Of a stretch of 12,782 nt of DNA, positions 1-12,782 are shown one piece after another. The notes under the pieces are model-generated. The model saw only the letters and a program-made list of their open reading frames with translations, was not told the origin of the DNA and did no database searches. Origin of the DNA: Thermoplasmata archaeon (GTDB lineage: Archaea > Thermoplasmatota > Thermoplasmata > SG8-5); assembly GCA_030655715.1 (NCBI GenBank), contig JAUSPR010000012.1, forward strand, positions 1 to 12,782, written 5' to 3'. How positions within the stretch are numbered: the first letter of the stretch is position 1; every line of letters starts with the position of its first letter. The position numbers and the translations under genes are program-made.

Positions 1-1
1 T

Positions 2-1018: not shown

Positions 1019-1195
1019 TGCCCTGGAGAAAATACAGCCACATGGTAGGTTCCTGCCCTCCAACATCAAAGTAGAAGTGCCGCTTATGCGGAGATAAGAT
1101 TCCTTCCCCATTCACGAGGAAGAAAACATTCAGGTAGCAATAGGGGAAGAAGCGGCAGAAAAAACCCAGGAAAACAAATACTCATTTCCATACGT

Positions 1196-1210
1196 AAAAT
1201 ATATATATAC
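1196..1210 (+). promoter_or_regulatory. TATA box for the exported Ig-like protein gene
   Basis: A strongly AT-rich tract (AAAATATATATATAC) sits in an otherwise mixed 268-bp spacer. An archaeal start site would fall about 25 bp downstream, near 1230-1236, giving a leader of about 50 nt before the chosen ATG at 1287. The rest of the 1019-1286 spacer shows no convincing gene. Confidence 0.6.
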
Positions 1211-1286
1211 AAACATATATTACTTTTACTGCCAGCAAACAAGGATGCGGGGAATTCCGTGCGATTTGCCTGGCAAGGGATACTAC

Positions 1287-3497
1287 ATGGCATTCAAAAA
1301 CAAGCTTCTGGCACTGACTTTCACAGTCATGTTCATTTTGACAATATTGGTTCTTCCAGCACCCGTTGAGGGTGCTGTCACAAACCTGGAGTTGGTTCCT
1401 GGCAAGTATACCGGGAACAACACATACGTGCCTGGTGAAACAATCAGCATCATCGTCGCAGGCGATACCGAGGGTGAAAAATTTGCAATTTACAGCGTCA
1501 TAAACGGTGAAAATCTCATTCCGGGAGGTAATATTCAGATTCCAGCAAGTGGTTCAGTCAAGGTCTCTTACGAGGTGCCGAGCGATGTTCCTGACGGCAA
1601 TTACCTACTCAGGGTGAAAAGGCCGAACGAGGCCGTAGAGGCCGAGACCAACTTCAGCGTCCAGGGTTATGTGTTCAAGATAGAAACCGATAGGAACGCC
1701 TACCTGAGCAGCGATGAGATAAGGGTATTCTGGACCGCGAACAACCTGAAGGATCAGACTCTACCTGCCACAGGCATTGGCAAGATAGATATCTGGATGA
1801 TAGATCCGAACCTCGGGAATCTGGGACGCATAGTGGAGGCGTACAGGTTCAATGTCTCGGCTGGGAGTGTGGCTTTCAAGCTTCCTATGATAGACAACTA
1901 CACAAGAATTTTTTTCGTGGATGGTTGGTTCAATAGCAGTTCCACGGCACCGTTGCGAAGCCAGTACTCCAAGGCTGATTTTTCAATCAAGCGTCTTGGC
2001 GTCATAATCACCATGGACAAAAATCAGTATGCAGCCGGCTCGTTAATGAGGCTCTCTGTCCGCACCCTTGCCACAGACAATCCTGCCAACCCCTCCATCA
2101 CGGAAACTGCGGAACCCGAATGTAATGTCACGATTTCCATCAAGAAAATTGGAGACATACAACCGACCTACCCGCCAATCACACTCAAAACGGATTCACA
2201 AGGTGTATTGAATCACATAATCCCGCTGAACAATGAAACCTATGTTGACGGCGCGTTCTTTGAAGTGGAAATATATGCTTACAAGGGCACGAACTCAATT
2301 TCCGATAGCCAGTCATTTGAAATAGTATCTTCGTCATCCATAAGTATCGTGCTTAACTTCAACAGGGCTCAATACGCGTCCAGCGAAACTTTATTCGTGA
2401 ATGCGACCGCATCTGCCATAGGCGATGTGACCAGCACCACTTTCACGTATATACTGGAAATCAGAGCTCTATCATCGAATGGTTCACTTTTCGCCAGGGA
2501 TACACAGACGCATGGCAATTTTTCTTTCGCTATCCCTGGGAATTTCGAGGGTTTGCTCTGGATTAGGGTCACGGGAGATGATGGCGCGGGAAATAGTGCG
2601 TCAGTCATCCAGCAGGTGAGTGTCGCATATGCCCTTGTTCTGGTAAACCTGGACAGGGATTATTACAATCAGAATGACCGGCTTTCTATATCATATTCCA
2701 TAATCGGGACAATGATTGGAACGCCATCTACATTCTATGTGGTGTATGACAACGAGGGAAACGTGGTAGAGGAGGGCGTCACCCAGGGCGGTATTTTCAC
2801 CTTTGATGTGCCTGTCGCGCCATCTAGCAAGTACGGATTTACTGTATTCGCTTCTGCGGGAGGTAGGGTAGTCCAGGGCACTGACAGTGCGTTCCTTTTC
2901 TCGGGTTACCTGCTCAATCTGGAATTCAACAGAGGGTACTATGGACCTGGTGACACCATTGCAGTGAACTACGACATCATAATTCTTGGCAATGCAAATA
3001 TGCCCGCCACTTTCACTATAACATATGGGCTTATCAACGGCCCGGTATCCAGCCTGCAGACCACGGAGACAAGCGGAACGTTAATCTACACCATTCCAAA
3101 GGATATTGACGAAGGCGTTCAGATATTCATGGCATCATGTAACTTTGGCGCAACCCAGGCCTCTTCGAGCGAAATTCTACTTGTCAAATCAGATGCGAAC
3201 CCTTTGTGGTTTCTCAAGATTAGTGATATCCCGGTCTTCAGCATCGGCTTGCTGCTGATAGTACTCTTCTCTCTCTACATATCCTACAGGACAAGAAAAA
3301 GAATAAAACATATGGAGAAGGAAGGGGTAATCAAACCAACTGGCCTTGCCGAGTTAACCATGCCAAAACGAGCACAGGATTCATCACTCCATCAGGTTGA
3401 ATGTGTGGAATGCGGTAATCCCATAGAAATTACCACCAGCAGGAGACCGATTGAGGTAATGTGCCCGCACTGCGGGGAGATACAGCACATAGAATAG
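1287..3497 (+). CDS. Exported, membrane-anchored multi-Ig-like-domain protein with cytoplasmic zinc ribbon
   Basis: Protein of 736 residues. I chose ATG 1287 over in-frame ATG 1245 because it places a signal peptide exactly at the N-terminus (MAFKNKLLAL followed by a hydrophobic core, likely cleaved near residue 29); AAGGGA lies just upstream. About six beta-sandwich-like domains of 90-110 residues follow (roughly 34-127, 128-236, 237-348, 351-447, 449-538, 541-633). Most begin with a recurring strand of the form hydrophobic-D/N-(R/K)-x-x-Y-x-x-(G/S)-(D/E), for example LNFNRAQY, VNLDRDYY and LEFNRGYY, resembling macroglobulin MG2/CARDB-type adhesion modules. One membrane helix lies at about 648-667, then a basic stop-transfer (RTRKRIK) and a cytoplasmic tail ending in a CxxC-x16-CxxC zinc ribbon (Cys706, 709, 726, 729). 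It is probably a cell-surface protein; the ligand is unknown and I cannot give a gene name. Confidence 0.88.
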   Translation: MAFKNKLLALTFTVMFILTILVLPAPVEGAVTNLELVPGKYTGNNTYVPGETISIIVAGDTEGEKFAIYSVINGENLIPGGNIQIPASGSVKVSYEVPSDVPDGNYLLRVKRPNEAVEAETNFSVQGYVFKIETDRNAYLSSDEIRVFWTANNLKDQTLPATGIGKIDIWMIDPNLGNLGRIVEAYRFNVSAGSVAFKLPMIDNYTRIFFVDGWFNSSSTAPLRSQYSKADFSIKRLGVIITMDKNQYAAGSLMRLSVRTLATDNPANPSITETAEPECNVTISIKKIGDIQPTYPPITLKTDSQGVLNHIIPLNNETYVDGAFFEVEIYAYKGTNSISDSQSFEIVSSSSISIVLNFNRAQYASSETLFVNATASAIGDVTSTTFTYILEIRALSSNGSLFARDTQTHGNFSFAIPGNFEGLLWIRVTGDDGAGNSASVIQQVSVAYALVLVNLDRDYYNQNDRLSISYSIIGTMIGTPSTFYVVYDNEGNVVEEGVTQGGIFTFDVPVAPSSKYGFTVFASAGGRVVQGTDSAFLFSGYLLNLEFNRGYYGPGDTIAVNYDIIILGNANMPATFTITYGLINGPVSSLQTTETSGTLIYTIPKDIDEGVQIFMASCNFGATQASSSEILLVKSDANPLWFLKISDIPVFSIGLLLIVLFSLYISYRTRKRIKHMEKEGVIKPTGLAELTMPKRAQDSSLHQVECVECGNPIEITTSRRPIEVMCPHCGEIQHIE

Positions 3498-3526
3498 TGT
3501 ATTATTGTGTTGGACGACACGCAGAG

Positions 3527-3560
3527 CCCGCACTGTGGGGAGATTCAACACATCGAATAG
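3527..3560 (+). repeat. First in-frame echo of the zinc-ribbon C-terminus (non-coding remnant or readthrough segment)
   Basis: This 34-base segment repeats 3464-3497, the end of the preceding CDS including its stop codon, exactly 63 bases (21 codons) downstream and therefore in the same frame. Both encode PHCGEIQHIE followed by TAG. The two copies differ at four bases, all of them synonymous (TGC/TGT, ATA/ATT, CAG/CAA, ATA/ATC). No start codon or RBS for an independent gene is visible. Confidence 0.75.
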
Positions 3561-3575
3561 GCTCGCCATCCCAGT

Positions 3576-3599
3576 GGCGAAATCCAACACATCAAGTAA
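3576..3599 (+). repeat. Second in-frame echo of the zinc-ribbon C-terminus
   Basis: A shorter copy in the same frame encodes GEIQHIK followed by TAA. Against the first echo, GGG/GGC, GAG/GAA and ATT/ATC are synonymous, and only the last sense codon changes (E to K). It is preceded by a 6-bp inverted repeat TCGCCA/TGGCGA at 3563-3568 and 3575-3580, which overlaps the start of the echo. Confidence 0.6.
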
Positions 3600-3611
3600 A
3601 CCATAACCTCA

Positions 3612-3621
3612 TTTTATATAA
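3612..3621 (+). promoter_or_regulatory. TATA box for the HisA-like gene; transcript probably leaderless
   Basis: TTTTATATAA is centred about 28 bp before the GTG at 3645. Archaeal transcription starts about 25 bp downstream of the TATA centre, so the mRNA would begin within a few bases of the start codon. No Shine-Dalgarno sequence lies before 3645, which agrees. Confidence 0.65.
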
Positions 3622-3644
3622 TGTAATAAGCCATTAGCCTTCCC

Positions 3645-4319
3645 GTGAAACAGATTCCAGCATTGTCACTTAGGGACGGCCACGTTGTAGTGGTGGAGGG
3701 TGGCAAATACACCCCCCTTCGGAATAAAGAAGGGCAGTACCGCAGCCCGGTCAATATTCTGAAGGAACATAATTTTCAGGAAGAAGAAATTTTCATACTG
3801 GATCTTGATGGAATTGAGAGAAACAGCCCTAATTTGAACATCGTCAAACGTATAGCGGCACTGAAGGACGTTTGGCTGGATGCCGGAACCGATGATGCAG
3901 ATAGCATGATGGATCTGTTCATTTCAGACGCTTCTCGGGTGGTCATGAGCACAGCTTATGTGGATTCGCTGTCCGAGTTGACCGATGCCCTGGATTTATC
4001 TGAAAACATCATCGTGTCCATTGGTTACGACCAGGGCATTGTGAGTCCGAACAAACAGATTTGTGAAATGAACCTGGACACGCTTCTTGACGAAATCAGT
4101 ACTATGCCGAATATTCGCACGGGAATGCTGTTCGACCTGGGTGGATTGAGGGATGGCACAGCCCCGGATCCTGGAGTGGTTTCCAGGATGGCCGATACAT
4201 TCAAGGAATTGTACGTTTCAGGTTTTGTCGGGAAGACTGTCATTGACTCTCTAGAATCTTCTGGCATTGCCGGCGTTATCGTAGATTTCAGAACAATGGA
4301 GGCGATGCAGGATGTCTGA
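3645..4319 (+). CDS. HisA-related TIM-barrel protein (COG1411-like), GTG start
   Basis: Protein of 224 residues resembling the archaeal proteins related to HisA (ProFAR isomerase) but distinct from true HisA. The N-terminus IPALSLRDGHVVVVEGGKY matches the first beta strand of the family (I-P-x-x-x-L-x-x-G-x-V-V). Further strands are visible: IFILDLDGI at about 48-56 (the LDLDGI strand), DVWLDAG, VVMSTAYV, IIVSIGYD, GMLFDLGGLRDG and the final GIAGVIVDF. The start is a GTG with no SD but a TATA box at leaderless distance; no upstream in-frame alternative is needed. It overlaps the DUF2240 gene by 8 nt (ATGTCTGA), so the two are cotranscribed. The reaction is unknown; a role in histidine biosynthesis should not be assumed since no other his gene is nearby. 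Confidence 0.8.
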   Translation: MKQIPALSLRDGHVVVVEGGKYTPLRNKEGQYRSPVNILKEHNFQEEEIFILDLDGIERNSPNLNIVKRIAALKDVWLDAGTDDADSMMDLFISDASRVVMSTAYVDSLSELTDALDLSENIIVSIGYDQGIVSPNKQICEMNLDTLLDEISTMPNIRTGMLFDLGGLRDGTAPDPGVVSRMADTFKELYVSGFVGKTVIDSLESSGIAGVIVDFRTMEAMQDV

Positions 4320-4788
4320 ACTTCAGGTTGCCTTGGCCCAGGTATTCAGGAAGAAGGGCAAATCTTCCATGCCGGAAAATGATTTCGTTTTTGCGGTCTC
4401 TCTGGATTTCAGATGGTTCACCCCGAAGGAGGCGCAGAAACTTCTGGAGCTCGGCCTAGACAGTGAGTTGCTGGCCATGAAAGACGGCATTGTAAGTCCG
4501 ACTTTCGATTTCAAGGCCACAGAAATCCCAAAAGGTTATTCCCCGGCGCCTGAACTTATCCTTCAGAACAAGCAACCGAGGGGCCTTTTTCTCAAGATTG
4601 TGGACATGATTTCTCAGTCAAAAAATTTGCCTACCAAGGACGTAATTTCTCAGATTAACCAGACCCAGGACAGAATGTCAGTTGACATCGAGGTGGCTGC
4701 ACTCGTGGTGGCTAAAAATTTCGAGTTGGATGTGTCAAAATACCTTGACTTGGTAGAGGAAGAGATTGGTAAAAGATATAAACAATAA
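4312..4788 (+). CDS. DUF2240 family protein
   Basis: Protein of 158 residues with the features I associate with archaeal DUF2240: an N-terminal FRKKGKSSMPENDFVFAVSLDFRWFTPKEAQKLLELG segment in winged-helix style (about residues 12-48), then a strand-turn KDGIVSPTFDF, a conserved-looking EIPKGY, and a helical C-terminal half. The start ATG overlaps the stop of the HisA-like gene, with GGAGG about 10 bases upstream. The winged-helix-like first half suggests nucleic-acid contact, but this is inference. Its TAA stop abuts the TAG of the convergent PAC2-family gene with no base between them. Family assignment is from memory of sequence character. Confidence 0.72.
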   Translation: MSELQVALAQVFRKKGKSSMPENDFVFAVSLDFRWFTPKEAQKLLELGLDSELLAMKDGIVSPTFDFKATEIPKGYSPAPELILQNKQPRGLFLKIVDMISQSKNLPTKDVISQINQTQDRMSVDIEVAALVVAKNFELDVSKYLDLVEEEIGKRYKQ

Positions 4789-5541
4789 CTATCCGATATA
4801 TCTTAATTCATCCGGCTTCTCGATTGCTGGTTTCAAATCATTCAGGCTGGCAGTGAGATCATCTATCTCCTTGGAATGCTTTTCAAGCTCGGTGAAGTCA
4901 ATTTTTATTCCCAAAAGTTTCACCAGAACCTCAAGAACGCCTTGAGCGCTCTTCGGGTCTGAGAAATAACCGGATGTTTCGCCCATCAAACAAGCAGCCT
5001 CTATTTTTCTCAGTTGGCCAAGTCCAAGAAGCAAACCAGCCGCGCCTACAATTCCGCCGGCAGGTTCGTTCATGGAAAATTGAACGCCTGCGATCTTGAG
5101 CTCCTCAACCAGTTCCTTGGAGGTGGTCGCACCCAGCACCCTGGGCTCAGAAATCAGTTTGCCAACGCTCCAACCGCCAAGCGTGTAAATCCTGCTTCCT
5201 CCGAATTTCTCGAAAATGTCAAGAACCTCGTAGGTAATCTCGTACTGGCCTTCCTGGGAAATGCCTTGATAATCGCCGGATAGAATTATTATATCGGAAC
5301 CATTTTTTGATTTATGATAATAAAGGTCATTGGAAACCAGCCTTATCACGCCATCGTCGCCAATCAAAACCTGGGGCGGGAAATGTTTTGAATAAATGCT
5401 GATGAATTTCTTGGCTTTCAATTTGGAAATCAGGTGGTCTGCAGCTAATTTTCCCACATTGCCGACGCCTGGAAGTCCTTCAACCAGTATTGGCTTGTTG
5501 AGCTTCGGCTCTTCATGATGTACAAGAAGGATGTCCTTCAT
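4789..5541 (-). CDS. PAC2 family protein (COG2047-like), proteasome assembly chaperone homologue
   Basis: Protein of 250 residues. The N-terminal EGLPGVGNVGKLAADHLI motif (about 21-38) is the PAC2-family signature, followed by the beta-rich core (QVLIGDDGVIRL, DIIILSGDYQG, IYTLGGWSVG) and GGIVGAAGLLLGLGQL near 163-178; the C-terminus is a charged helix (FTELEKHSKEIDDLTASL). Eukaryotic PAC2 helps assemble the proteasome alpha ring. The archaeal COG2047 proteins are homologues whose chaperone role is not shown for all members. The start codon overlaps the nop10 stop (ATGA), with GGAGGCG just upstream, so it is the last gene of the ribosomal operon, a recurrent archaeal order. A second, more distant PAC2 homologue lies at 11747-12535. 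Confidence 0.87.
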   Translation of the reverse strand: MKDILLVHHEEPKLNKPILVEGLPGVGNVGKLAADHLISKLKAKKFISIYSKHFPPQVLIGDDGVIRLVSNDLYYHKSKNGSDIIILSGDYQGISQEGQYEITYEVLDIFEKFGGSRIYTLGGWSVGKLISEPRVLGATTSKELVEELKIAGVQFSMNEPAGGIVGAAGLLLGLGQLRKIEAACLMGETSGYFSDPKSAQGVLEVLVKLLGIKIDFTELEKHSKEIDDLTASLNDLKPAIEKPDELRYIG

Positions 5542-5714
5542 TTACTCGCCTCCTCTGCGACAAGCTTCTTCAGTCTTCTTCTGTACTTGCCATACCTGTC
5601 TTCTGGAGAAAATCTTGAAGGGTGAGGCGATGCGGTCTTACCGCCGCATTTCTGACAGGCGTCATTGAGAGAATAGGCTCCGCATTCCATACATCTTGTC
5701 ATGTAATTGTCCAT
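5538..5714 (-). CDS. nop10: H/ACA RNP component Nop10
   Basis: Protein of 58 residues, normal for archaeal Nop10 (about 55-60). The zinc ribbon has Cys8-x2-Cys11 and Cys20-x2-Cys23 (CMECGAYSLNDACQKCGG), followed by the family hallmark PHPSRFSPEDRYGKYRRRLKK. Nop10 binds Cbf5 and helps form H/ACA pseudouridylation particles. The start is ATG 5714, because this gives the usual short N-terminus before the first Cys, leaves one base after the eIF2 alpha stop, and has GAGAGG upstream; a longer in-frame start at 5747 would run back into eif2a. It overlaps the next gene by 4 nt. Confidence 0.95.
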   Translation of the reverse strand: MDNYMTRCMECGAYSLNDACQKCGGKTASPHPSRFSPEDRYGKYRRRLKKLVAEEASK

Positions 5715-5715
5715 C

Positions 5716-6492
5716 TCAAGACCTCTCGAAGGTGCCTGTTCCGCCATGCTTCAGGATTTCGTTTATTGCCTGGTTGGCAGCATGCCGTATGAGTTCCTCG
5801 GCGGCTTTGAATTCCACCTCGGTTGCAACAATGCGGTACTTGGGCGCACCCATGTATTGGATTTTGACCACGCCAGAATCTCCGCCTTCTTTCTCAGCCA
5901 AGGCCAGGGCATTTCTGATATTCTCGATTCCGTTGCTTCCCGGGCAAATCAATTCGATGACTCCGTCAACTTTAGCCAGGGAGATGGTGACGTTTTCCTT
6001 CGCAACCTGAACGAAAATGTCCACCCAGGTTCCTTTGAATTTCTTGGGCAGGCCGCTTTCTTCAGCGGCAGCCTCGAATGCAATGTAATATCCCCCATAT
6101 TCGTCAACCAGTTTGGAGCCGTGTTTGGACTTGAAGTCCTCCAGGGTTGTTTCCAGTCGCTCGGCCACAATCTCAATGAGTTTCGTGGCCTTTTGCTCAT
6201 TCTTCCATTCCTGGATTTTTTCGCGTTTCTGGTGAGCGTTGACCTTTTTGAGTGAGAGATCGATATGGCCCTTGGAGGTTTCAACTTTCATGACCTTACA
6301 GACAATGCGCTGGCCATCACGAACATAATCGCTCATCCGTTTGACCCAACCTGTAGCGATTTCCGCAACATGGATGAATCCTTCTTTGCCCGGATATTCT
6401 TCAAGTTCAACGAATGCGCCAAAGTTCCGCACGCTCTTTACCGTGCAGACTACAAGGTCGCTTTCCTCTGGAAATAATTCTTCGGAGTCCAT
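5716..6492 (-). CDS. eif2a: Translation initiation factor aIF2 subunit alpha
   Basis: Protein of 258 residues, the usual size. Domains in order: S1 OB-fold at about 11-84 (VVCTVKSVRNFGAFVELEEY, GFIHVAEIA, IDLSLKKV), helical middle domain at about 85-170, and C-terminal alpha/beta domain at about 175-258 with VKIQYMGAPKYRI and EFKAAEELIRHA. It is part of the aIF2 heterotrimer that delivers Met-tRNAi to the small ribosomal subunit; the C-terminal domain contacts the gamma subunit. The start is ATG 6492, which shares one base with the rps27e stop (TAATG); the frame stays open further upstream to 6576, but that would duplicate rps27e. It lies in the L44e-S27e-aIF2alpha-Nop10-PAC2 operon. Confidence 0.96.
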   Translation of the reverse strand: MDSEELFPEESDLVVCTVKSVRNFGAFVELEEYPGKEGFIHVAEIATGWVKRMSDYVRDGQRIVCKVMKVETSKGHIDLSLKKVNAHQKREKIQEWKNEQKATKLIEIVAERLETTLEDFKSKHGSKLVDEYGGYYIAFEAAAEESGLPKKFKGTWVDIFVQVAKENVTISLAKVDGVIELICPGSNGIENIRNALALAEKEGGDSGVVKIQYMGAPKYRIVATEVEFKAAEELIRHAANQAINEILKHGGTGTFERS

Positions 6493-6680
6493 TATTCTAC
6501 AACCCCGACTATCTCGCCTTTGATGGCACATTTGCCGCCTGTAGGAGTAGCCAGGGTTGAGCCACATGCCTGACACGGCACCCGGGTGGCGCTTTTAACA
6601 AAAAGAATCTGTTTGTTTTCGCAGTCCGGGCACTTGACTTCCACGAACTTTGCTTCCTTGACATCTGTTGCTTTTGCCAT
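6492..6680 (-). CDS. rps27e: Small ribosomal subunit protein eS27 (S27e)
   Basis: Protein of 62 residues, full length. The zinc-binding cysteines are Cys17-x2-Cys20 and Cys36-x2-Cys39 (VKCPDCENKQ, VPCQACGSTLATPTGGKC). The signature TLATPTGGKA/C is present. It follows rpl44e with a 2-base gap and has GAGGGAT before the ATG; its TAA overlaps the eif2a start. Confidence 0.96.
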   Translation of the reverse strand: MAKATDVKEAKFVEVKCPDCENKQILFVKSATRVPCQACGSTLATPTGGKCAIKGEIVGVVE

Positions 6681-6682
6681 GA

Positions 6683-6964
6683 TTATCCCTCAGTGAATTC
6701 GAATTTCTTTGCCCTAATGGCAATAGGTTGGACATATTTCTTGCATACTGGACACTTGAACCTTAACCAAACTTTCCTGGTTGGTTTTTCCCTGCCCTCT
6801 GGTTTTGGTCTCGGAAAACCTCCGTACCCTGCGGTGACCTTCCTGAATCTCCTCTGACCCCATTTTAGCTCGCTTGTCCTCTTCTTCTTTACCCTCTCTG
6901 CATCATGGGGTGTGTGTTTCTTACACGTGGGGCAGTACATGTTGACTTTTCTTGGAAGTTTCAT
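6683..6964 (-). CDS. rpl44e: Large ribosomal subunit protein eL42 (L44e)
   Basis: Protein of 93 residues, full length. It has two CxxC pairs (Cys11/14 in YCPTCKKHTPH and Cys71/74 in FKCPVCKKY), the basic HTPHDAERVKKKR stretch, and YGGFPRPKP followed by KPTRKVWLRFKC, all classic for the family. It is the first gene of the minus-strand operon. The TATA box lies at 7022-7029, giving a leader of about 35 nt with an AGGTAGGAT stretch before the ATG. Confidence 0.97.
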   Translation of the reverse strand: MKLPRKVNMYCPTCKKHTPHDAERVKKKRTSELKWGQRRFRKVTAGYGGFPRPKPEGREKPTRKVWLRFKCPVCKKYVQPIAIRAKKFEFTEG

Positions 6965-7021
6965 ATTTATCCTACCTGGCTGCTTTTCTGCTCTGGCAGT
7001 GGGGGGCTATGTAGCCGCATC

Positions 7022-7029
7022 CTATATAT
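7022..7029 (-). promoter_or_regulatory. TATA box of the rpl44e-rps27e-eif2a-nop10-PAC2 operon
   Basis: The minus strand reads CATATATAGG here, about 60 bp before the rpl44e ATG. A start about 25 bp downstream would fall near 6998-7000. It is the only clear TATA box upstream of the five tightly packed genes. Confidence 0.65.
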
Positions 7030-7083
7030 GAAGGTTTTTATGATTAAGCACGATTAAACATATTCTCGTCCACATGCCTAAAT

Positions 7084-7104
7084 TTTAGGGGTTGGTAGTT
7101 TACT
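7084..7104 (+). repeat. 21-bp direct repeat at left edge of locus B (partner at 7428-7448)
   Basis: TTTAGGGGTTGGTAGTTTAC plus T matches 7428-7448 at 20 of 21 positions. The partner is the 3' strand of the last unit's Pc hairpin plus its GTTTAC tail. The left copy is therefore either the remnant of an upstream unit or a terminal direct repeat of the whole element. Confidence 0.75.
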
Positions 7105-7161
7105 GCACATATGCCGAGAACACTCAGCCCTGTGGGACTGAGATGAATCGGCATGAGCAGT
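7098..7161 (+). ncRNA. 5' hairpin (P0) of structured repeat, locus B
   Basis: Stem-loop of about 60 nt. Outer stem ACTGC (7102-7106) with GCAGT (7157-7161); middle stem ATGCCGA (7111-7117) with TCGGCAT (7148-7154); tip CTCAGCCC (7123-7130), loop TGT, GGG-A-CTGAG (7134-7142) with a bulged A. An internal loop GAACA/ATGAA lies between the middle stem and the tip. The same hairpin occurs at 11438-11503. The GA and ATGA bases in the internal loop recall a kink-turn but do not fit the consensus cleanly. The minus strand would form a similar structure, so strand is chosen from the downstream units. Confidence 0.7.
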
Positions 7162-7300
7162 CGTCGATCCACCGTTGCATACCGTGCATGTACTTTCATC
7201 GATAATCGAAGCGTAAAAGCTTCGATAAATCAGGTATGCAACTGCCATATGGTAAACTTCCAGCCCCGGGAATAAACGCCAGCTTCTTTAGGGGCTGGTA
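7160..7300 (+). repeat. Structured repeat unit 1, locus B (141 bp)
   Basis: First of two head-to-tail copies. Helices: Pa GTTGCATACC (7174-7183) with GGTATGCAAC (7233-7242), 10 bp; Pb ATCGAAGC (7205-7212) with GCTTCGAT (7219-7226), 8 bp with a 6-nt loop; Pc CCAGCCCC (7260-7267) with GGGGCTGG (7291-7298), 8 bp. Unpaired conserved motifs are CCGTGCAT after the Pa 5' arm and GATAAATCAGG leading into the Pa 3' arm. The same helices with different bases occur at 11437-11647 and on the minus strand at 12511-12782. No ORF of note is present. Confidence 0.85.
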
Positions 7301-7447
7301 GTCGTCGATCCACCGTTGCATACCGTGCATGTACTTTCATCGATAATCGAAGCGTAAAGGCTTCGATAAATCAGGTATGCAACTGCCATATGGTAAACTT
7401 CCAGCCCCGGGAATAAACGCCAGCTTCTTTAGGGGCTGGTAGTTTAC
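7301..7447 (+). repeat. Structured repeat unit 2, locus B (141 bp plus GTTTAC tail)
   Basis: Copy of 7160-7300 with one difference in 141 bases (A7218 versus G7359, in the Pb loop). Pa is 7315-7324/7374-7383, Pb 7346-7353/7360-7367, Pc 7401-7408/7432-7439. Unlike unit 1, Pc is extended by GTAAAC (7393-7398) pairing with GTTTAC (7442-7447) across a TT/TA internal loop. The terminal GTTTAC contains, on the minus strand, the TAA stop of the gene at 7444-7629. Confidence 0.85.
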
Positions 7448-7629
7448 TCGTCTTCGCCAAGGCCGGTGTATAAAAGCAGTGCAACCCCGAACCAGCTGAG
7501 CATGAGAATCATCAATGGCAGGTTCCCCCAGCTCAGGAAGACCTGGGCTATCAGGAATATCATAGGTATGCCAAATCCGAGGAATCCGTAAAGGAATTTT
7601 CCGTATTTTGATGTGATGAACTGGTTCAT
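7444..7629 (-). CDS. Small two-helix membrane protein, hypothetical
   Basis: Protein of 61 residues with two hydrophobic segments (about residues 12-34, FLYGFLGFGIPMIFLIAQVF, and 37-57, LPLMILMLSWFGVALLLY) and a short acidic end (GEDE). I do not recognise a family. A likely TATA box (GTTTTTAAA, 7659-7667) lies about 33 bp before the ATG, giving a short leader, so it may be transcribed separately from rpe, which ends 68 bp upstream. Its TAA stop lies within the GTTTAC tail of the repeat array, so the gene end abuts the structured repeat. Confidence 0.65.
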   Translation of the reverse strand: MNQFITSKYGKFLYGFLGFGIPMIFLIAQVFLSWGNLPLMILMLSWFGVALLLYTGLGEDE

Positions 7630-7658
7630 GTCAATCTTGTCGATGCATACGGAGGGGG

Positions 7659-7667
7659 TTTAAAAAC
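7659..7667 (-). promoter_or_regulatory. TATA-like box for the small membrane protein gene
   Basis: The minus strand reads AGTTTTTAAACC about 30-38 bp before the ATG at 7629. The T-run could equally help terminate rpe transcription, since it lies 30-40 bp past the rpe stop. Confidence 0.45.
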
Positions 7668-7697
7668 TTAACGATGGGTTCGGGCCAAAGTTCGAAA

Positions 7698-8366
7698 TTA
7701 GATGCCAGCTGCCGCCTTGAGTGCGGCAATCTCGCCTGCGGGGCCGCGCTTGCCCTTGAACACCGCTGAACCAGCCACGAAAATAGTTGCTCCGGCCTTC
7801 ACGACCTCTGCCACATTGTGCTCGTTGATGCCGCCGTCCACCTCAATCTCTATGTCCTGGCCTAGTTTTTCTGCCAATCTCCTGACCTCAGAAATCTTGG
7901 AGAAATGCTCATTCATGCATTTCTGGCCTCCGAAACCAGGGTTTACAGTCATAATTACGACCATGTCCAGCTCGGAGATGAACGGTTCCAGATCCTCAAT
8001 CGGGGTACATGGATTAACTGCCATGCCCACCTTCGCGCCCAAATCCCGAATGTGCTTGATAGTCTGGGTTGGATTGTCCTCCGACTCGACATGAAATGTC
8101 AGCCAGTCACTGCCTGCTTCGATGAATTCCCTGGCATACCTCATAGGGTGATTAATCATGAGATGTGTATCGAATGGAATTTTTGAAATGGCCTTCAGCT
8201 GCCTGGCAAATGCCGGTCCGAATGTGATATTCGGTACAAAATTTCCGTCCATGACGTCCAAATGGACCATATCCGCTCCTGCGTCATTCAAAATTCGAAT
8301 GGCATCTCCCAGATTGGTCAGGTCCGCCGAAAGAATCGAAGGGGCAATCTTCACTTTTCTATCCAT
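7698..8366 (-). CDS. rpe: Ribulose-phosphate 3-epimerase
   Basis: Protein of 222 residues, full length TIM barrel that interconverts ribulose 5-phosphate and xylulose 5-phosphate. Signatures: APSILSADL (8-16), VHLDVMDGNFVPNITFG (34-50), DTHLMI (66-71), MTVNPGFGGQ (139-148) and EVDGGIN (175-181). The metal/catalytic residues His36, Asp38, His68 and Asp177 are present, as is the phosphate-binding VAGSAVF. ATG 8366 is preferred to the in-frame GTG at 8375, because that GTG forms part of a strong Shine-Dalgarno GGTGAGG placed 3 nt before the ATG. The upstream coiled-coil gene ends 14 bp before, so the two probably share a transcript. Confidence 0.96.
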   Translation of the reverse strand: MDRKVKIAPSILSADLTNLGDAIRILNDAGADMVHLDVMDGNFVPNITFGPAFARQLKAISKIPFDTHLMINHPMRYAREFIEAGSDWLTFHVESEDNPTQTIKHIRDLGAKVGMAVNPCTPIEDLEPFISELDMVVIMTVNPGFGGQKCMNEHFSKISEVRRLAEKLGQDIEIEVDGGINEHNVAEVVKAGATIFVAGSAVFKGKRGPAGEIAALKAAAGI

Positions 8367-8368
8367 AA

Positions 8369-8375
8369 TCCTCAC
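8369..8375 (-). promoter_or_regulatory. Shine-Dalgarno site of rpe, decides the start
   Basis: The minus strand reads GATGGGGTGAGGATT directly before ATG 8366; GGTGAGG complements the archaeal 16S 3' end and overlaps the alternative GTG codon, making that GTG an unlikely start. Confidence 0.7.
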
Positions 8376-8380
8376 CCCAT

Positions 8381-8554
8381 CTAATTGTACATGTCAAGGA
8401 ATCTCTGGTTGTTCGGAATGGCATCGTACTCATCTTCGCCACCATCTATATCCATGACTATGTTAACGAGAGAATTCACTATCTCCTGCATGTGCTTGAG
8501 TTCGTTCCTGAGCTGCCTTATTTCTTCAACGAGTTCCTGGGTAGACTTGTCCAT
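8381..8554 (-). CDS. Small coiled-coil protein, hypothetical (57 aa)
   Basis: The sequence starts MDKSTQELVEEIRQLRNELK and continues through HMQEIVNSLVNIVMDIDGGEDEYDAIPNNQRFLDMYN. Residues 5-36 have heptad-like spacing (L8, I12, L15, L19, M22, I25, L29) consistent with a short coiled coil, followed by an acidic tail. The chosen ATG 8554 has GGGAGGG 5-6 nt upstream and a TATA box at 8594-8602; the longer frame reaching back to 8860 runs across csl4 and is rejected. It ends (TAG) 14 bp before rpe, implying cotranscription. I do not recognise a family. It may be an oligomerising or partner-binding microprotein. Confidence 0.75.
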   Translation of the reverse strand: MDKSTQELVEEIRQLRNELKHMQEIVNSLVNIVMDIDGGEDEYDAIPNNQRFLDMYN

Positions 8555-8593
8555 GCAATCCCTCCCTATGCATAAGGGTAAGTTCATTCTTGT

Positions 8594-8602
8594 TAAATAT
8601 AA
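8594..8602 (-). promoter_or_regulatory. TATA box for the coiled-coil gene and rpe
   Basis: The minus strand reads AATTATATTTAAC within the 61-bp gap between csl4 and the small gene. The expected start is near 8572, a leader of about 18 nt that includes the GGGAGGG site. Confidence 0.6.
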
Positions 8603-8615
8603 TTGCGGCGGAAAT

Positions 8616-9188
8616 TCACGCTTCAGTATATCCAGGCGTGAATTTGCCGAAATCACTAGCAAGTTTTCTGTGCTCGTTATTCTCGCATTCATTGCAGTAG
8701 AGTTTGCCGCTTTTATTGACCATCTGGATACGACATCGGCTGCATCTGGCCTTGAGAACTCCAAGTTCCGGCTCCTTGCTCGAAAGTTGAAGTGAAGGTC
8801 TTGCCTGAAGAACCCTGGCCCGTACCAGGTCGCCTGTGCGATATTCCTTCCTGGCATCATCGGTATATGCTTCCGTGATTTTGGACACGTGTATCACGCC
8901 CATCTCATTGAACCCCACTCGTTTCACTGAGTCCTCAACACCCGAGACAATAACATTGGCCAGGCTGTTTGAAACATTGGACACCTCACCGAGAATGATG
9001 TCCCCCGGCTTGAGTGCGCTTACTATCTTGATTTCCAGTACCTGGACGGTTTTTTCCGATTCATTGAACACGGGCTTGCCCATGACTGCAGCAAATATCG
9101 TGCCATTGCTCTCATATGTGCCCTGGCCAGGCATATATTCCTCGCTCGTTGCGAGCTCGTCGCCGGGCATTGCCATTTTTTCGTTCAT
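8616..9188 (-). CDS. csl4: Exosome RNA-binding subunit Csl4
   Basis: Protein of 190 residues in the usual three-part layout: N-terminal domain with PGDELATSEEYMPGQGTYE (8-26), S1 domain at about 61-137 (KPGDIILGEVSNVSNSLANV, MGVIHVSKI, LVRARVLQA), and a C-terminal zinc ribbon with Cys149-x2-Cys152 and Cys165-x2-Cys168. Csl4 caps the archaeal exosome ring (Rrp41/Rrp42) and recruits RNA and DnaG. The ATG overlaps the stop of the methylase gene (ATGA), with GATGAGG about 12 nt upstream, so the pair is an operon. Confidence 0.93.
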   Translation of the reverse strand: MNEKMAMPGDELATSEEYMPGQGTYESNGTIFAAVMGKPVFNESEKTVQVLEIKIVSALKPGDIILGEVSNVSNSLANVIVSGVEDSVKRVGFNEMGVIHVSKITEAYTDDARKEYRTGDLVRARVLQARPSLQLSSKEPELGVLKARCSRCRIQMVNKSGKLYCNECENNEHRKLASDFGKFTPGYTEA

Positions 9189-9784
9189 GGTCTCACAATC
9201 CTCATCATGGTAACATCGAAGAAGGCCATGTCCTTCGTGTGGAAATCGAAGGTATGTTTTATCTCCATTTTATATTTTCTCTCCATTTGGACAATTCTGT
9301 CATTTTTTACTATTTTTGTTCTGAGGAAATCCATGGTCTCGGCATTGTGAAGGCTATAGATCACATCGGCCAGTTCCATGGCTTTGTCAAGAAATGGAAT
9401 GTCTGCATGTTTTGTCTGGGAGCCGAACGGAGGATTCATGATGCATGTGTCATATTTCCCAGAGATGTCATCCACTTTACTGCACTGGAAATTGATGTCA
9501 CATCCTGCTTTTTCCGCGTTTCGCCTGGCTGCATCCAGTGCCTCGGCATCAATATCTAGCCCGACAATCTCCAAGGCTCCTAGCAGGCAGGCGCCGATTG
9601 AAAAAACACCTGTGCCGCATCCAAGGTCAATAATGCTTTTCGATTCAATGTCGCCGAATGCGTGGGCCGTGTAAAGGATATCGGCCGCTATCTTTGCCGG
9701 TGTTGCATATTGCTCCAACTTGGCTTTTGGATTGGCAAATCCCTCAAGGCCCTGAAGCCGAATCTCCAGCACTCTCTGTTTCAT
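9185..9784 (-). CDS. METTL5-like RNA N6-adenine methyltransferase (COG2263)
   Basis: Protein of 199 residues, SAM-dependent Rossmann methylase. Visible motifs: LEQYATP (24-30), the SAM-binding DLGCGTGVFSIGA (53-65), GLDIDAEAL (75-83) for the ribose contact, and catalytic NPPFGSQTKHADIPFL (117-132), the NPPF motif typical of N6-adenine methylases. Homologues include METTL5, which makes m6A in 18S rRNA; the archaeal target is inferred, not shown here. I chose ATG 9784, which gives the usual MKxRxLEIxLQxLEGF start and lies 27 bp from a TATA box (leaderless); a TTG at 9808 would add eight residues. The gene overlaps csl4. Confidence 0.9.
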   Translation of the reverse strand: MKQRVLEIRLQGLEGFANPKAKLEQYATPAKIAADILYTAHAFGDIESKSIIDLGCGTGVFSIGACLLGALEIVGLDIDAEALDAARRNAEKAGCDINFQCSKVDDISGKYDTCIMNPPFGSQTKHADIPFLDKAMELADVIYSLHNAETMDFLRTKIVKNDRIVQMERKYKMEIKHTFDFHTKDMAFFDVTMMRIVRP

Positions 9785-9805
9785 GCGTGGGTTAGTGTCG
9801 TCATT

Positions 9806-9815
9806 CAATTAAACT
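9806..9815 (-). promoter_or_regulatory. TATA-like box for the methylase-csl4 operon (leaderless geometry)
   Basis: The minus strand reads AGTTTAATTG, centred about 27 bp before ATG 9784. No Shine-Dalgarno sequence precedes that ATG, in keeping with a leaderless mRNA. Confidence 0.5.
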
Positions 9816-9886
9816 TTTTGCCAGGATATCTGAAATGTTAACATCCAACACATGGCCAGCACAAAATAATATTTCCCGAACGCAAA

Positions 9887-9894
9887 GTATTTAC
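9887..9894 (+). promoter_or_regulatory. TATA-like box for the 37-aa gene
   Basis: GCAAAGTATTTACAC contains a TATA-like GTATTTAC preceded by purines, centred about 33 bp before ATG 9923. It would give a leader of only a few bases. It is divergent from the methylase promoter. Confidence 0.4.
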
Positions 9895-9922
9895 ACCCCT
9901 TCGTACAATATTATCTATTACA

Positions 9923-10036
9923 ATGTTAGTAGTGAAGGTTTCGGAAAAACTGAAGTACAATGTCGGAAAACTTCAGAAGGGTATCAAGGTATCAGGGAAC
10001 ATACCAAAGGTCGTAATAACTGCGGAAGAAGATTAA
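9923..10036 (+). CDS. Probable 37-aa small protein, hypothetical
   Basis: The predicted product begins MLVVKVSEKLKYNVGKLQKG, continues IKVSGNIPKVVITAEED and ends at TAA. It is rich in alternating hydrophobic/basic residues (VVKV, KGIKVS, PKVVIT), suggesting two or three short beta strands, with an acidic end. The frame has ordinary codon use, a TATA-like box at 9887-9894, and lies in the 9785-10106 spacer, which otherwise would be empty. A longer open frame on the same strand (9835-10077) reads as low-complexity unnatural protein and is rejected. I do not recognise a family, and the short length keeps confidence moderate. From 10037 to 10106 I see nothing. Confidence 0.5.
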   Translation: MLVVKVSEKLKYNVGKLQKGIKVSGNIPKVVITAEED

Positions 10037-10106
10037 CGATCGGGGGGCTAAGGAATGTTTTACCAGTCAATAGTTAGCTTTAGCGCAAAATAGTGAGAAA
10101 ACTGGC

Positions 10107-11369
10107 TTAACAGTTCTCGATTTCTTTCATAACCCTTTTGAGCTGTTTTTCAAGTTCCAAGTGAAGATATAGATTGGCAGCCCGGCGCAGCTCGCTTTTT
10201 GCCTGTTCCACTTCGCCTTTTTGCTTTAATGCGAGGCCGTACTCTTCATAGACCTCTGCCAGCGAGATTGGCGTGTTAATCTCCATGAAGACCTCAATAG
10301 CTTTTTTATTGTACTCCTCCATCTTAGGCCAGTCTTTTCTGGCCGCATATAACCGCCCATAATTCTGATAGATGCCTCCGATGCCTACCTTGTCCCCTAT
10401 CCTCATGAGAATGTCAAAGCTACCATCTAGATTCTTTTTGGCCTTGTCCAGCTTTCCCAGATGTATAAGTGCTTCACTCGAGTTGAACTCGGCCCAGGCC
10501 ATCATGTTCATCCAACCGCCTTTTTCACCGTACTCCCTGCATTTGTCGAATTGCACCAGGGCCTTTTCCCAATCTGCAAGCTGAAGGTAAGTGTCTCCCA
10601 GGTTATTGTAGGCACGGGAGATTTCGTAAACCTCATCTGTCTCCTTGAGATATTTCAGAGCTTCCTGGTAATGCCCAATTGCTTCTTTCATTTCATGACT
10701 ATCAGAATGTATGTTTCCGAGGCCGATATGTGCCGAGCCAAGTATCTTCTTGTCATCTACTTTGAGAGCAAATTCGATGGCCCTTTCTTGATATTGTCCA
10801 GCAAGTTCGTAGTTACCCTTGTTCCAGTAGATGCCGCCTATCATATTACAAGCCTGGCCTATGGATTTTGCCTCTCCAGATTCCTCGGCAGCCTCCAGTG
10901 CCTGTTCGTAATAGTCCAGAGCCTGGTCGAATTCTGACCGTTCCTGATGAATGAATCCCAGTCTTCGAAGATATTGGGAAACTTCGGGCTGATTGTTGCT
11001 GGCCCTTGCAGCGGCCAGAAGTTTGTTAAAATATTCGAAGGCTTTGTCCCACTCTGCCGAGAAAATGCAAGTCATGCCCAGGTCTTCCAGCATCTTGTTG
11101 CGTTTCACCTCGCTTTTCTCTCCGGCCGCAACCTGATCCAGGTTCTCCAGTTTCTTGATTTCGGAATAAATTTTCCTGGCTTTTTCATAACCACCGAAGG
11201 TTCTCATGACCTCCGATAGGTTGCTCGCGAGTTTCGGTAGATCTGGCGGCTCTATGTCGTTCGGGTCAGAACCTATCAACATGCACTGCTTTTTAACAAT
11301 GAAACCGCCAATGTCGCTCATCTCTCTATTCATGATGGCGTAAATTTGCTTGGTAAGTTCTTTTGACAT
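10107..11369 (-). CDS. TPR-repeat protein (about eight 40-residue repeats)
   Basis: Protein of 420 residues, no signal peptide or membrane segment. Residues 1-80 are a helical domain (IMNREMSDIGGFIVKKQCML, then LSEVMRTFGGYEKARKIYSEI) that I cannot name. From about 92 to 405 there are eight tetratricopeptide-like repeats with a 40-residue period (starts near 92, 132, 172, 212, 252, 292, 332, 372), each with A-helix LG-x-I/Y-x-x-x-x-x-x-(Y/W) and B-helix A-x-x-x-(Y/F)-x-x-A-(L/I), e.g. LDYYEQALEAAEESGEA and IGHYQEALKYLKETDE. This 40-residue TPR type is typical of protein-interaction scaffolds. The ATG has GGAGGG about 3 nt upstream and a TATA box at 11404-11413. The partner is unknown; it is divergent from the second PAC2 gene, with a structured repeat in the shared intergenic region. 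Confidence 0.9.
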   Translation of the reverse strand: MSKELTKQIYAIMNREMSDIGGFIVKKQCMLIGSDPNDIEPPDLPKLASNLSEVMRTFGGYEKARKIYSEIKKLENLDQVAAGEKSEVKRNKMLEDLGMTCIFSAEWDKAFEYFNKLLAAARASNNQPEVSQYLRRLGFIHQERSEFDQALDYYEQALEAAEESGEAKSIGQACNMIGGIYWNKGNYELAGQYQERAIEFALKVDDKKILGSAHIGLGNIHSDSHEMKEAIGHYQEALKYLKETDEVYEISRAYNNLGDTYLQLADWEKALVQFDKCREYGEKGGWMNMMAWAEFNSSEALIHLGKLDKAKKNLDGSFDILMRIGDKVGIGGIYQNYGRLYAARKDWPKMEEYNKKAIEVFMEINTPISLAEVYEEYGLALKQKGEVEQAKSELRRAANLYLHLELEKQLKRVMKEIENC

Positions 11370-11403
11370 GACCCTCCTATTCAGACCTATATTTCTCTCT
11401 TAG

Positions 11404-11413
11404 CTTATAGTTT
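11404..11413 (-). promoter_or_regulatory. TATA-like box for the TPR gene
   Basis: The minus strand reads GTTAAAACTATAAGC. The expected start is near 11383-11387, leaving about 15 nt of leader that contains the AGGAGGGT site at 11371-11378. It is 24 bp from the left end of structured repeat A. Confidence 0.5.
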
Positions 11414-11436
11414 TAACGATGAAGTTTGTGTTGGGG

Positions 11437-11647
11437 GTTTACTGTACAAATGCCGAGAACGCTCAGTCCTTTAGGGCCGAGATGAATCGGCATGAACAGT
11501 AAAAACGTGATAGACCGCCATGCGCCGTGCATAATTTTGCATATGAAATCAAAGCTAAATGGCTTTGATAAATTAGGTGCATGGCCTACACGTGTAAACT
11601 TCCAGCCACACAACAAACGCCAGCTCCTTTAGGGGCTGGTAGTTTAC
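11437..11647 (+). ncRNA. Structured repeat, locus A (single complete copy, about 211 nt)
   Basis: Helices in order: P0, outer TTTACTGT (11438-11445) with ACAGTAAA (11496-11503), middle ATGCCGA (11450-11456) with TCGGCAT (11487-11493), tip CTCAGTCC/GGGCCGAG (11462-11469/11474-11481, one A-C mismatch, one G-U). Pa GCCATGCGCC (11517-11526) with GGTGCATGGC (11576-11585), one G-U, prolonged by ACGTG (11505-11509)/CACGT (11589-11593). Pb ATCAAAGC (11548-11555) with GCTTTGAT (11562-11569). Pc GTAAAC-TT-CCAGCC (11594-11607) with GGCTGG-TA-GTTTAC (11634-11647). Compared with locus B most Pa pairs differ but pair. The Pa G-U pair exists only in the plus-strand reading, mildly supporting that strand. 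It lies between the divergent TPR and PAC2 genes. Whether it is transcribed is unknown. Confidence 0.75.
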
Positions 11648-11700
11648 AACCTTTGACATTTTGCATGATTGATGTTTTGTCTGAAATTGATATTGTGTAC

Positions 11701-11710
11701 TTTATGTTTA
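11701..11710 (+). promoter_or_regulatory. TATA-like box for the second PAC2-family gene
   Basis: TTTATGTTTA lies about 40 bp before ATG 11747. The predicted start near 11730 leaves a short leader containing GAGGA (11736-11740). Confidence 0.4.
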
Positions 11711-11746
11711 AGTACAGGCATGCAGATATAGGGACGAGGAAACACC

Positions 11747-12535
11747 ATGCCAGAGGATATTGAGATATACGAACTGAAGAAGGTGGACATTCGCGGTGCA
11801 ACAGTCATTGACGGCTTTCCCAGTGTTGGCCTTGTCAGCTCGATAGTGGCCAATTACCTAATCAACACCCTTAAACTTACTCAGGTTGGAACCATGGATT
11901 CGGTGTACTTTCCTACAGTATCTTTGGTAAGGGACGGAATACCCCACAATCCCGTGAGAATATATGCCGGCGAGAAAATCGGTACCGGTCCCGGTTCCAT
12001 GGATCAGATTGTCGTTTTCATTTCAGAATTTCAGCCACCACCCAACCTAGTCAAGCCCATTGCCAGTGCCATGCTGGACTGGGCGCAGGACCAGAGATGC
12101 AAGATGTTGGTGTCCCCAGAAGGACTGATCATTGATAGAGAATCTATTGACATTGAAGGAGATGACGGCGAGGCCGAACTCGGCGTTTACGGCGTTGGTA
12201 GTACTGACTGGATGCGCGAGGAGCTTCTCAAAAACGGTATAAACGAGTTCACCGAGGGTGTTATCACTGGCGTTGCAGGAGTTCTTCTCAATGAGGGCAA
12301 GCGCAGGGACTTCAATGTTGCCACCATACTGGCCGAGGCCCATCCCGATTACCCGGACGCCAGGGCAGCAGCAAGGGTCATGGAGATGATTGATAAATTC
12401 TTGCTTCACATCGACCTGGACGTAACCCCATTGTACGAAGAAGCGGAACGGATTGAGTCGCAGCTGAAGAACATACACAAGCAGACGAAGAAGAACAAAG
12501 CACCAGGCCAAAATCAGCCTTCTATGTACGGATAA
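11747..12535 (+). CDS. PAC2 family protein (COG1938-like), proteasome assembly chaperone homologue
   Basis: Protein of 262 residues. IDGFPSVGLVSSIVANYLI at about 21-39 is the PAC2-family N-terminal signature; RIYAGEKIG, DQIVVFISEFQPPP (86-99) and ITGVAGVLLNEG (about 173-184) complete the core, and the C-terminus is a charged helix (YEEAERIESQLKNIHKQTKKNK). It belongs to the branch of larger archaeal PAC2-like proteins (COG1938), distinct from the one at 4789-5541. SD GAGGA lies 6 nt before the ATG. The last seven codons and the TAA (12512-12535) lie inside structured repeat C and recur at 12658-12681, so the C-terminal NQPSMYG is repeat-derived. A chaperone role is inferred from the family. 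Confidence 0.87.
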   Translation: MPEDIEIYELKKVDIRGATVIDGFPSVGLVSSIVANYLINTLKLTQVGTMDSVYFPTVSLVRDGIPHNPVRIYAGEKIGTGPGSMDQIVVFISEFQPPPNLVKPIASAMLDWAQDQRCKMLVSPEGLIIDRESIDIEGDDGEAELGVYGVGSTDWMREELLKNGINEFTEGVITGVAGVLLNEGKRRDFNVATILAEAHPDYPDARAAARVMEMIDKFLLHIDLDVTPLYEEAERIESQLKNIHKQTKKNKAPGQNQPSMYG

Positions 12536-12656
12536 TCTGCGAGCCGAAGGCTGATTATGGCCTGTTTCCGTAGGTCGTGTGCCTGATTTATCGAAGCTGG
12601 ATGGCTTCGATTTTCTTTGAATATATTTGTACGGCACACGACGGTATATCGTTTTA
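12511..12656 (-). repeat. Structured repeat unit, locus C, minus orientation (146 bp)
   Basis: Head-to-tail with the next copy at period 146. Read on the minus strand it has the same order as loci A and B. Pa arms lie at 12633-12642 and 12574-12583 (GTCGTGTGCC/GGCACACGAC). Pb arms lie at 12604-12611 and 12590-12597 (ATCGAAGC/GCTTCGAT). Pc arms lie at 12546-12556 and 12512-12522 (AATCAGCCTTC/GAAGGCTGATT, perfect 11 bp). The conserved GATAAATCAGG and CCGTAC motifs lie in the same places. The unit overlaps the last 25 bases of the PAC2 gene. Confidence 0.82.
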
Positions 12657-12782
12657 AAATCAGCCTTCTATGTACGGATAATTAGCGAACCGAAGGCTGA
12701 TTATGGCCTGTTTCCGTAGGTCGTGTGCCTGATTTATCGAAGCTGGATGGCTTCGATTTTCTTTGAATATATTTGTACGGCA
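12657..12782 (-). repeat. Structured repeat unit, locus C, second copy, cut by window end
   Basis: 126 bases visible, matching 12511-12636 with three differences, all in the Pc loop (12683, 12684 and 12689). The Pc arms (12658-12668/12692-12702) and the Pb arms are unchanged, and Pa is cut off at its second arm. The array may continue beyond the window, where a P0 hairpin would be expected if it resembles loci A and B. Confidence 0.8.

Follow-up and report, generated by a model that had tools for sequence, protein, structure and literature searches.

A covarying core inside probable gene-less IS200/IS605-type elements of a Thermoplasmata archaeon

Repeat copies in the window

The DNA analysed in the current study, referred to as the window, is a stretch of 12,782 nt from a Thermoplasmata archaeon (GTDB lineage Archaea; Thermoplasmatota; Thermoplasmata; SG8-5), corresponding to positions 1-12,782 of the forward strand of contig JAUSPR010000012.1 in the assembly GCA_030655715.1. 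It represents the entire contig C36 of this genome (G000; 1.73 Mb, 287 contigs, 72.7% complete). Neighbouring proteins encoded in the window match eIF2 alpha, ribosomal L44, PAC2 and the N-terminal region of RRP4, consistent with an archaeon. Three loci, referred to as A, B and C, contain five units of a repeat for which the initial annotation had proposed a common helix order Pa-Pb-Pc, and reading and folding of the units bear this order out. The features recognised are the following.

11438-11442, plus strand: TTTAC, putative target and left flank of element A (read directly)
11443-11647, plus strand: element A, a putative complete non-autonomous element of 205 nt with left end, core and right end (ends common to tnpA elements)
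11450-11493, plus strand: left-end hairpin of A with internal loop GAGAAC / GATGAAT (motif also upstream of tnpA in loci L110/L111, L271 and L280)
11517-11585, plus strand: core of A, Pa 11517-11526/11576-11585 enclosing Pb 11548-11555/11562-11569 (fold, covariation, match to model R2 of 83.1 bits)
11594-11647, plus strand: Pc, the right-end hairpin of A, GTAAACTTCCAGCC ... GGGGCTGGTAGTTTAC (right end common to tnpA elements)
7099-7103, plus strand: TTTAC to the left of element B, with a right-end-like stretch at 7083-7099 before it (read; repeat family D5)
7104-7447, plus strand: element B, left end (hairpin 7111-7154), two tandem units of core and Pc, right end (141-nt tandem repeat, 99%)
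7174-7242 (model match 7171-7243), plus strand: core of B1, Pa GTTGCATACC/GGTATGCAAC (fold and R2 match)
7315-7383 (model match 7312-7384), plus strand: core of B2 (R2 match)
12573-12645, minus strand: core of C1, Pa GTCGTGTGCC/GGCACACGAC (R2 84.8 bits, the top score among 86 matches)
12504-12564, minus strand: Pc of C1, outer stem CAGGCC/GGCCTG, inner stem with ATCAG/CTGAT, without the TAGTTTAC end (fold)
12719-12782, minus strand: core of C2, truncated 5' by the contig end (R2 match)

The Pa arms quoted in the initial annotation are exact, namely GCCATGCGCC (11517-11526) with GGTGCATGGC (11576-11585) in A, and those given above for B and, on the minus strand, for C. In Pa, A and B differ at seven consecutive pairs (2-8), six of them fully compensated and one being G-U versus A-U; the change of Pb, ATCAAAGC/GCTTTGAT versus ATCGAAGC/GCTTCGAT, and the CAGCC/GGCTG core of Pc also read and fold as described. 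The stems had been called nearly unrelated in sequence, which is overstated, since Pb is almost identical in A, B and C. The count of five units holds, B and C each being a real tandem pair with units of 141 nt (B1/B2, 99% identical) and 127 nt (C1/C2, 98% identical). The plus-strand coordinates first assigned to A and B take in an extra 5' hairpin (11450-11493 and 7111-7154) as well as the element ends, and the accompanying description named neither.

Element A, at 205 nt, is too short for a transposase gene and contains no ORF of 80 aa or more. A DNA search with this element revealed 56 matches in its own genome, where copies elsewhere are at most 91% identical, and matches in all four genomes of the genus that were searched.

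A PAC2-like protein (ORF 11747-12535; named by eye) has its last residues encoded antisense to the Pc arm of the C repeat (window 12504-12535), so that the repeat forms the 3' end of the gene. Another repetition is seen at window 3463-3599, where three imperfect 35-nt copies of the zinc-ribbon-like end of the gene at 1245-3497 are present, two of the three lying past its stop codon.

Fold and distribution of the core

Two covariance models have been built, R1 covering the core and the right hairpin (from 18 copies of the own genome) and R2 covering the core alone (from 25 diverse cores). Each of them matches 12 of the 13 genomes of the order, and R2, with 150 candidates scored in each genome, has at least 131 matches in the own genome and at least 136 in the sister genome G002; these and the other copy counts refer to related copies and do not represent independent events. 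The genome devoid of R1 and R2 matches (G004) is the sole member of its family among the 13. In two wider searches with stricter filters and 10-12 candidates scored per genome, in which weak matches may be lost, R1 matches 11 of 300 genomes of the class, every one in this order and none outside it, and R2 matches 2 of 389 genomes of the phylum, both of this genus. The covariance-model search proposed in the initial annotation has thereby brought out many further homologues, in which the stem changes are compensated. A collection of plasmids gave no match. The exact 16-mer of the right end occurs in four contigs of IMG/VR, which by a rough estimate is not above chance. For these archaea, no paper was found under Thermoplasmata-type names in an open-access library.

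An alignment (A4) of 25 diverse cores from across the order has standard pairs in 98.7% of its 450 cells, against 79.2% when shuffled and 24.9-37.8% when slid. Both sides of a pair have changed in 103 cells, where 24.8 are expected from the control, and 15 of the 18 pairs show such compensated changes. The description as a new structured repeat with compensatory change is therefore correct, with a support far beyond what three loci could give. The unpaired stretches CCGTRCA and GATAAATYAGG, which had been reported as kept, are so within the genus; across the order the loop columns fall below the stem columns in conservation (mean majority frequency 0.63 versus 0.75), a pattern that speaks against a loop with a catalytic or ligand-binding function.

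The mismatches of Pa are biased with respect to strand. Among 161 cores, 43 distinct pairs of Pa arms give 430 cells, of which 385 are Watson-Crick, 30 G-T, 8 A-C and 7 other, as read on the left-to-right strand, with the misregistered cut copy L251 left out and, the copies being related, with no exact test applied. A double-stranded inverted repeat should give G-T and A-C in about equal number; the excess of G-T points to the left-to-right strand folding alone. The core is thus probably folded in a single-stranded state, either as RNA or as single-stranded DNA. Compensatory change together with strand-asymmetric wobble, the pattern of a structured single strand, is present.

The 6+5 bp form of Pc reaches a score of 10 of 11 or better in 137 of 155 copies and in 0 of 80 shuffled controls. 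Its outer stem is mostly GTAAAC/GTTTAC; CATGAA/TTCATG, CCTGAA/TTCAGG, CAGGCC/GGCCTG and others are also seen.

Rfam offers no named RNA for these loci, in agreement with the initial annotation: a covariance-model search with E up to 10 gave three matches, all far below the gathering score and none at the three loci, where no match at gathering score is found. The initial annotation had taken a match to an existing Rfam or repeat family as evidence against novelty. Rfam has no such match, but the outer parts of the elements do correspond to a type of mobile element already known, PATE, as described in the available text of PMC3119063.

Short tandem expansions of the left arm of Pa with its loop (GCCATGC.TCGTG..CATATGCATGACC and the like) are seen upstream of the core in L190, L121, L144 and L167 (G002) and in L264 (G000).

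Ends, insertion sites and transposase partner

Many copies have a hairpin upstream of the core, with an internal loop GAGAAC ... GATGAAT and stems that vary, and a downstream end TAGTTTAC. A simple motif test recognised both ends in 39 of 82 cores of the own genome; in 30 others only the right end was recognised. For 61 cores of G002 the numbers are 21 with both ends and 21 with the right end alone, with right ends at cut contigs in 10 more. The test misses a second type of left end, GGCCGGGAAC..GATGA..GGCC, so the counts without a left end are upper bounds and the true share with both ends is larger. One copy, L134:3490 (G002), had been entered as bearing a right end through a loose match only, and this right end is false. 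The assemblies compared are fragmented, with several contigs breaking off within the repeats. A sizeable share of the cores have no recognisable left end and fewer are without the right end or both, which counts against the transposition reading.

Minimal elements of about 115 nt, consisting of left end and right end without the core, are also present in G002, and five of them have been read (L157, L130, L120, L159 and L188:917). Apparent core-less copies in G001 were rejected on inspection of three, L053 and L055 containing the core and L054 including a run of N.

Flanks of the cores were compared both ways between the sister genomes G000 and G002, and three pairs of filled and empty sites are readable base by base. 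The site L252 (G000), filled as GATTAC|element|AAGGA, corresponds to the empty GATTACAAGGA of L137 (G002). L195 (G002) is filled as TTGAG|element|GGTTCAATG and empty in L011 (G000) as TTAGGGTTCAATG, and conversely L011 (G000) is filled as ATTAC|element|ATC where L195 (G002) is empty as ATACATC. Target duplication is seen in none of the three pairs, and the insertion lies 3' of a TTAC/TTAG-like target; in one pair the left flanks differ by 1 nt. The site pairs of L246 and L230 align poorly at the joint, with the same outcome for L023. No empty site of element A itself, and no filled and empty pair for any of the window copies, was found in this comparison. The locus L030/L166 is filled in both species, which counts against the transposition reading in so far as not every copy is recent.

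Forty-four cores of the own genome have the left-end motif and sufficient upstream sequence. TTAC or TTAG stands just before this motif in 30 and TTAT in 6; the remaining 8, without TTA(C/G/T) at the expected place, count against the transposition reading.

The copies are mostly intergenic and their orientation to the neighbouring genes is without preference. The four arrangements of neighbours, obtained with a home-made gene caller, number 10/14/15/14 in G000 (59 usable of 82, of which 2 lie within genes and 4 lack a called gene on one side) and 10/11/9/9 in G002 (42 usable of 51; 1 within a gene, 2 without a called gene on one side). A role as riboswitch or terminator is disfavoured by this random orientation, with the same home-made gene caller as its basis.

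Y1 transposase genes (PF01797) have been identified in 7 of the 13 genomes of the order. At 2 of 11 such loci, L111 (G002) and L110 (G009), tnpA lies between the left-end motif GAGAAC..GATGAA and a right end GGTAGTTTAC, both on the strand of the gene and at distances that are nearly the same in the two loci. The final 32 nt of element A (11616-11647) are identical to those that close the tnpA element L110 and have 2 differences from those of L111. These two elements have tnpA as their only gene and a structured leader in the place of the core. Two points count against such a partnership, namely the 9 of 11 Y1 loci of the order without these ends, and the own genome, which has no match to Y1_Tnp or TnpB, although it is 72.7% complete with several copies at contig ends.

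The TnpA of the L110/L111 elements (P0001) belongs to Y1_Tnp (E-value 1.3e-28) and matches solved transposases including the TnpA of ISHp608. Its sequence shows the HUH motif, as HVH, and a tyrosine in the expected region. A protein identical to the G002 TnpA is encoded in VMTD01000135.1 (Euryarchaeota archaeon isolate S2_100); a further copy, 85% identical, occurs in a record labelled Methanomassiliicoccales archaeon CSMAG_2432. A search with P0001 revealed 17 tnpA loci in named genomes, and the surroundings of 11 were examined; both ends of the same kind are present at L271 and L280, which are records labelled Methanoperedens/Methanoperedenaceae, and the right end at L272. The core is absent from all 17 loci in a search with E up to 1.

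Part of the leader, L111:1361-1442 and the same part of L110, appears by eye to be foldable as GATAGGC..GCCTATC around two hairpins and lies directly 5' of the probable tnpA ribosome-binding site. At L116 (G002:C115), L108, L109, L112, L113 and L118, Y1 proteins of a second group, which resemble one another by eye, are encoded without matching ends; in L116, genes for a DUF4258 protein and a MazE-like antitoxin come after the Y1 gene.

Interpretation and alternative readings

The shared ends, the presence of tnpA between such ends in two genomes and the mode of insertion lead to a PATE-like reading. The loci very probably represent a non-autonomous element of the IS200/IS605 kind, about 205 nt long and present in high copy, with the core inside. 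Judged by the available portions of PMC3119063 on Haloquadratum and PMC7290912 on Halanaerobium, IS200/IS605 elements and the PATEs derived from them, which have no gene, agree with the present elements in ends, partner, target and insertion without duplication. The PATEs of Haloquadratum walsbyi, in the accessible text of PMC3119063, have no transposase, near-terminal palindromes related to IS605-type transposons and no target duplication, and occur in high copy, also as ends-only versions. The present elements have all this in common with them, being too short for a transposase and having near-terminal palindromes like those of IS200/IS605; they differ from these haloarchaeal elements in belonging to another order, in the extra covarying core and in a partner with tnpA only and no tnpB. 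With the tnpA-only IS200 group, represented by L110/L111, they share left and right hairpins, the TTTA(C/G)-type left flank and the right end, whereas the window elements are gene-less and have the core in place of leader and tnpA.

As a mechanism, a Y1 (HUH) transposase acting in trans would recognise the left and the right hairpin, both folded on a single DNA strand, and cleave 3' of TTTA(C/G) at the left and after TAGTTTAC at the right. The single strand would then be inserted 3' of another TTAC/TTAG-like site without target duplication. For IS608 and ISDra2, the template of the lagging strand is reported as the target (PMC6006769). The core (Pa around Pb), followed by the Pc form of the right-end hairpin, would occupy the position of leader and tnpA in the autonomous element. 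Mobilisation would presumably be due to a TnpA of the L110/L111 type, matching copies of which are seen in G002 and G009 only. The cut site of the IS200/IS605 family is chosen through pairing with a guide 5' of the hairpin, as stated in the available part of PMC8266576. Here the predicted pairing is of GTAAA(C) before the right hairpin with TTTAC, and of TAAA before many left hairpins with TTTA; the copies in which the outer stem of Pc is not GTAAAC/GTTTAC count against the transposon reading.

What is new, as judged from sequence comparison, is the internal core, which is found in this order only, is absent from the 17 tnpA loci and sometimes occurs without the ends. The transposase model alone leaves the covariation of Pa and Pb unexplained, since tnpA elements and minimal elements do without Pa and Pb. 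The core lies outside the IS200/IS605 plan and would be either a cis-acting folded module, a leader relic on which selection still acts, or a separate element. It may be kept for folding on the transposed strand, or in an RNA read from it, and may aid mobility or its regulation.

The last of these origins overlaps with the transposon reading, as it concerns only where the core came from, and we hold it to be possible but rather unlikely. The core (Pa-Pb with Pc) would be an element of its own, similar to a small mobile repeat, or a structured RNA, captured and carried by transposon ends. Five of the 61 cores of G002 have neither end by the motif test, and in three of them (L191:1475, L190:2327 and L155:602) Pa and Pb are intact and the Pc hairpin is spelled in another way; L188:5591, with intact Pa, has a poor Pc (8 of 11) and L136:1322 appears decayed, which speaks against it. 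The full element differs from the minimal one by a segment with GTAAA on both sides and short inverted ends ACGTG/CACGT, and the lack of cores at the 17 tnpA loci also fits a capture. However, the right end is present in most cores, the flanks in G000 and G002 reveal no empty site of a bare core, and no enzyme is known for it. SMRs, small mobile repeats, hit PATEs in Haloquadratum; SMR-A, of about 110 bp with inverted ends and no target duplication, lies inside PATEs within the near-terminal palindromes, according to the text available of PMC3119063. The core is comparable in these respects and differs in that its own insertion is not observed here. In its fuller form, likewise possible but rather unlikely, core and Pc would be an independent structured element, whether a small mobile repeat that hitchhikes or a small RNA with an effect on transposition in cis or in trans, selected for its single-stranded fold across the order, captured by an IS200-type transposon and spread to more than 100 copies per genome.

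The initial annotation had favoured an RNA family, which for a chromosomal non-coding RNA multiplied in the genome and acting as RNA now appears improbable. The strong covariation would suit it, and the excess of G-T over A-C on one strand is equally expected of folded single-stranded DNA. It is opposed by the transposon ends, by the empty sites with insertion at TTAC/TTAG-like sequences without duplication in three pairs, by the want of a constant orientation to genes, by loops that fall below stems in conservation and by the absence of an Rfam match. A reading as REP-like palindromes on which a domesticated, non-mobile Y1 protein (RAYT) acts is still less probable. High copy number, intergenic position, tandem units and the occurrence, in several genomes, of low-copy Y1 genes that lack these ends would agree with it, and bacterial REP/BIME with TnpA-REP (RAYT) are likewise dispersed palindromes linked to single-strand-acting Y1 proteins. 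In the available text of PMC8266576, REPs are palindromes of 20-50 nt mostly preceded by the tetranucleotide GTAG, whereas the units here are complete elements of 115-205 nt with two different ends and another anatomy, and the Y1 gene that has matching ends forms, with the same two ends, a complete element. Hardly credible is the proposal of TnpB omega-RNA remnants, with Pa-Pb-Pc as scaffold ending at the right end and the flank as guide. The fold does adjoin an IS605-type right end, but PF07282 (TnpB/Cas12f zinc ribbon) is over cut-off in 0 of the 13 genomes of the order, and the TnpB guide-RNA idea was rejected on this ground; three weak matches (E-values 5e-4 to 8e-4) lie in reading frames not TnpB-like by eye, and the autonomous elements with matching ends have tnpA only.

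If the elements are PATE-like, they add to a group of gene-less relatives of single-strand transposons so far described, in the accessible text of PMC3119063, by their terminal palindromes, a module in which the letters change and the fold is kept. Its very many copies in 12 of the 13 genomes offer a natural mutational series on the role of folded single-stranded DNA (or RNA) inside a transposon. R1 and R2 also serve to recognise elements at which several contigs end and which readers can mistake for non-coding RNAs.

Three cores of G002 (L155:602, L155:3066 and L134:3490) lie behind one repeated non-coding stretch, between genes that are ATPase- or nuclease-like by eye, and the L155/L134 region is possibly gene-cassette-like.
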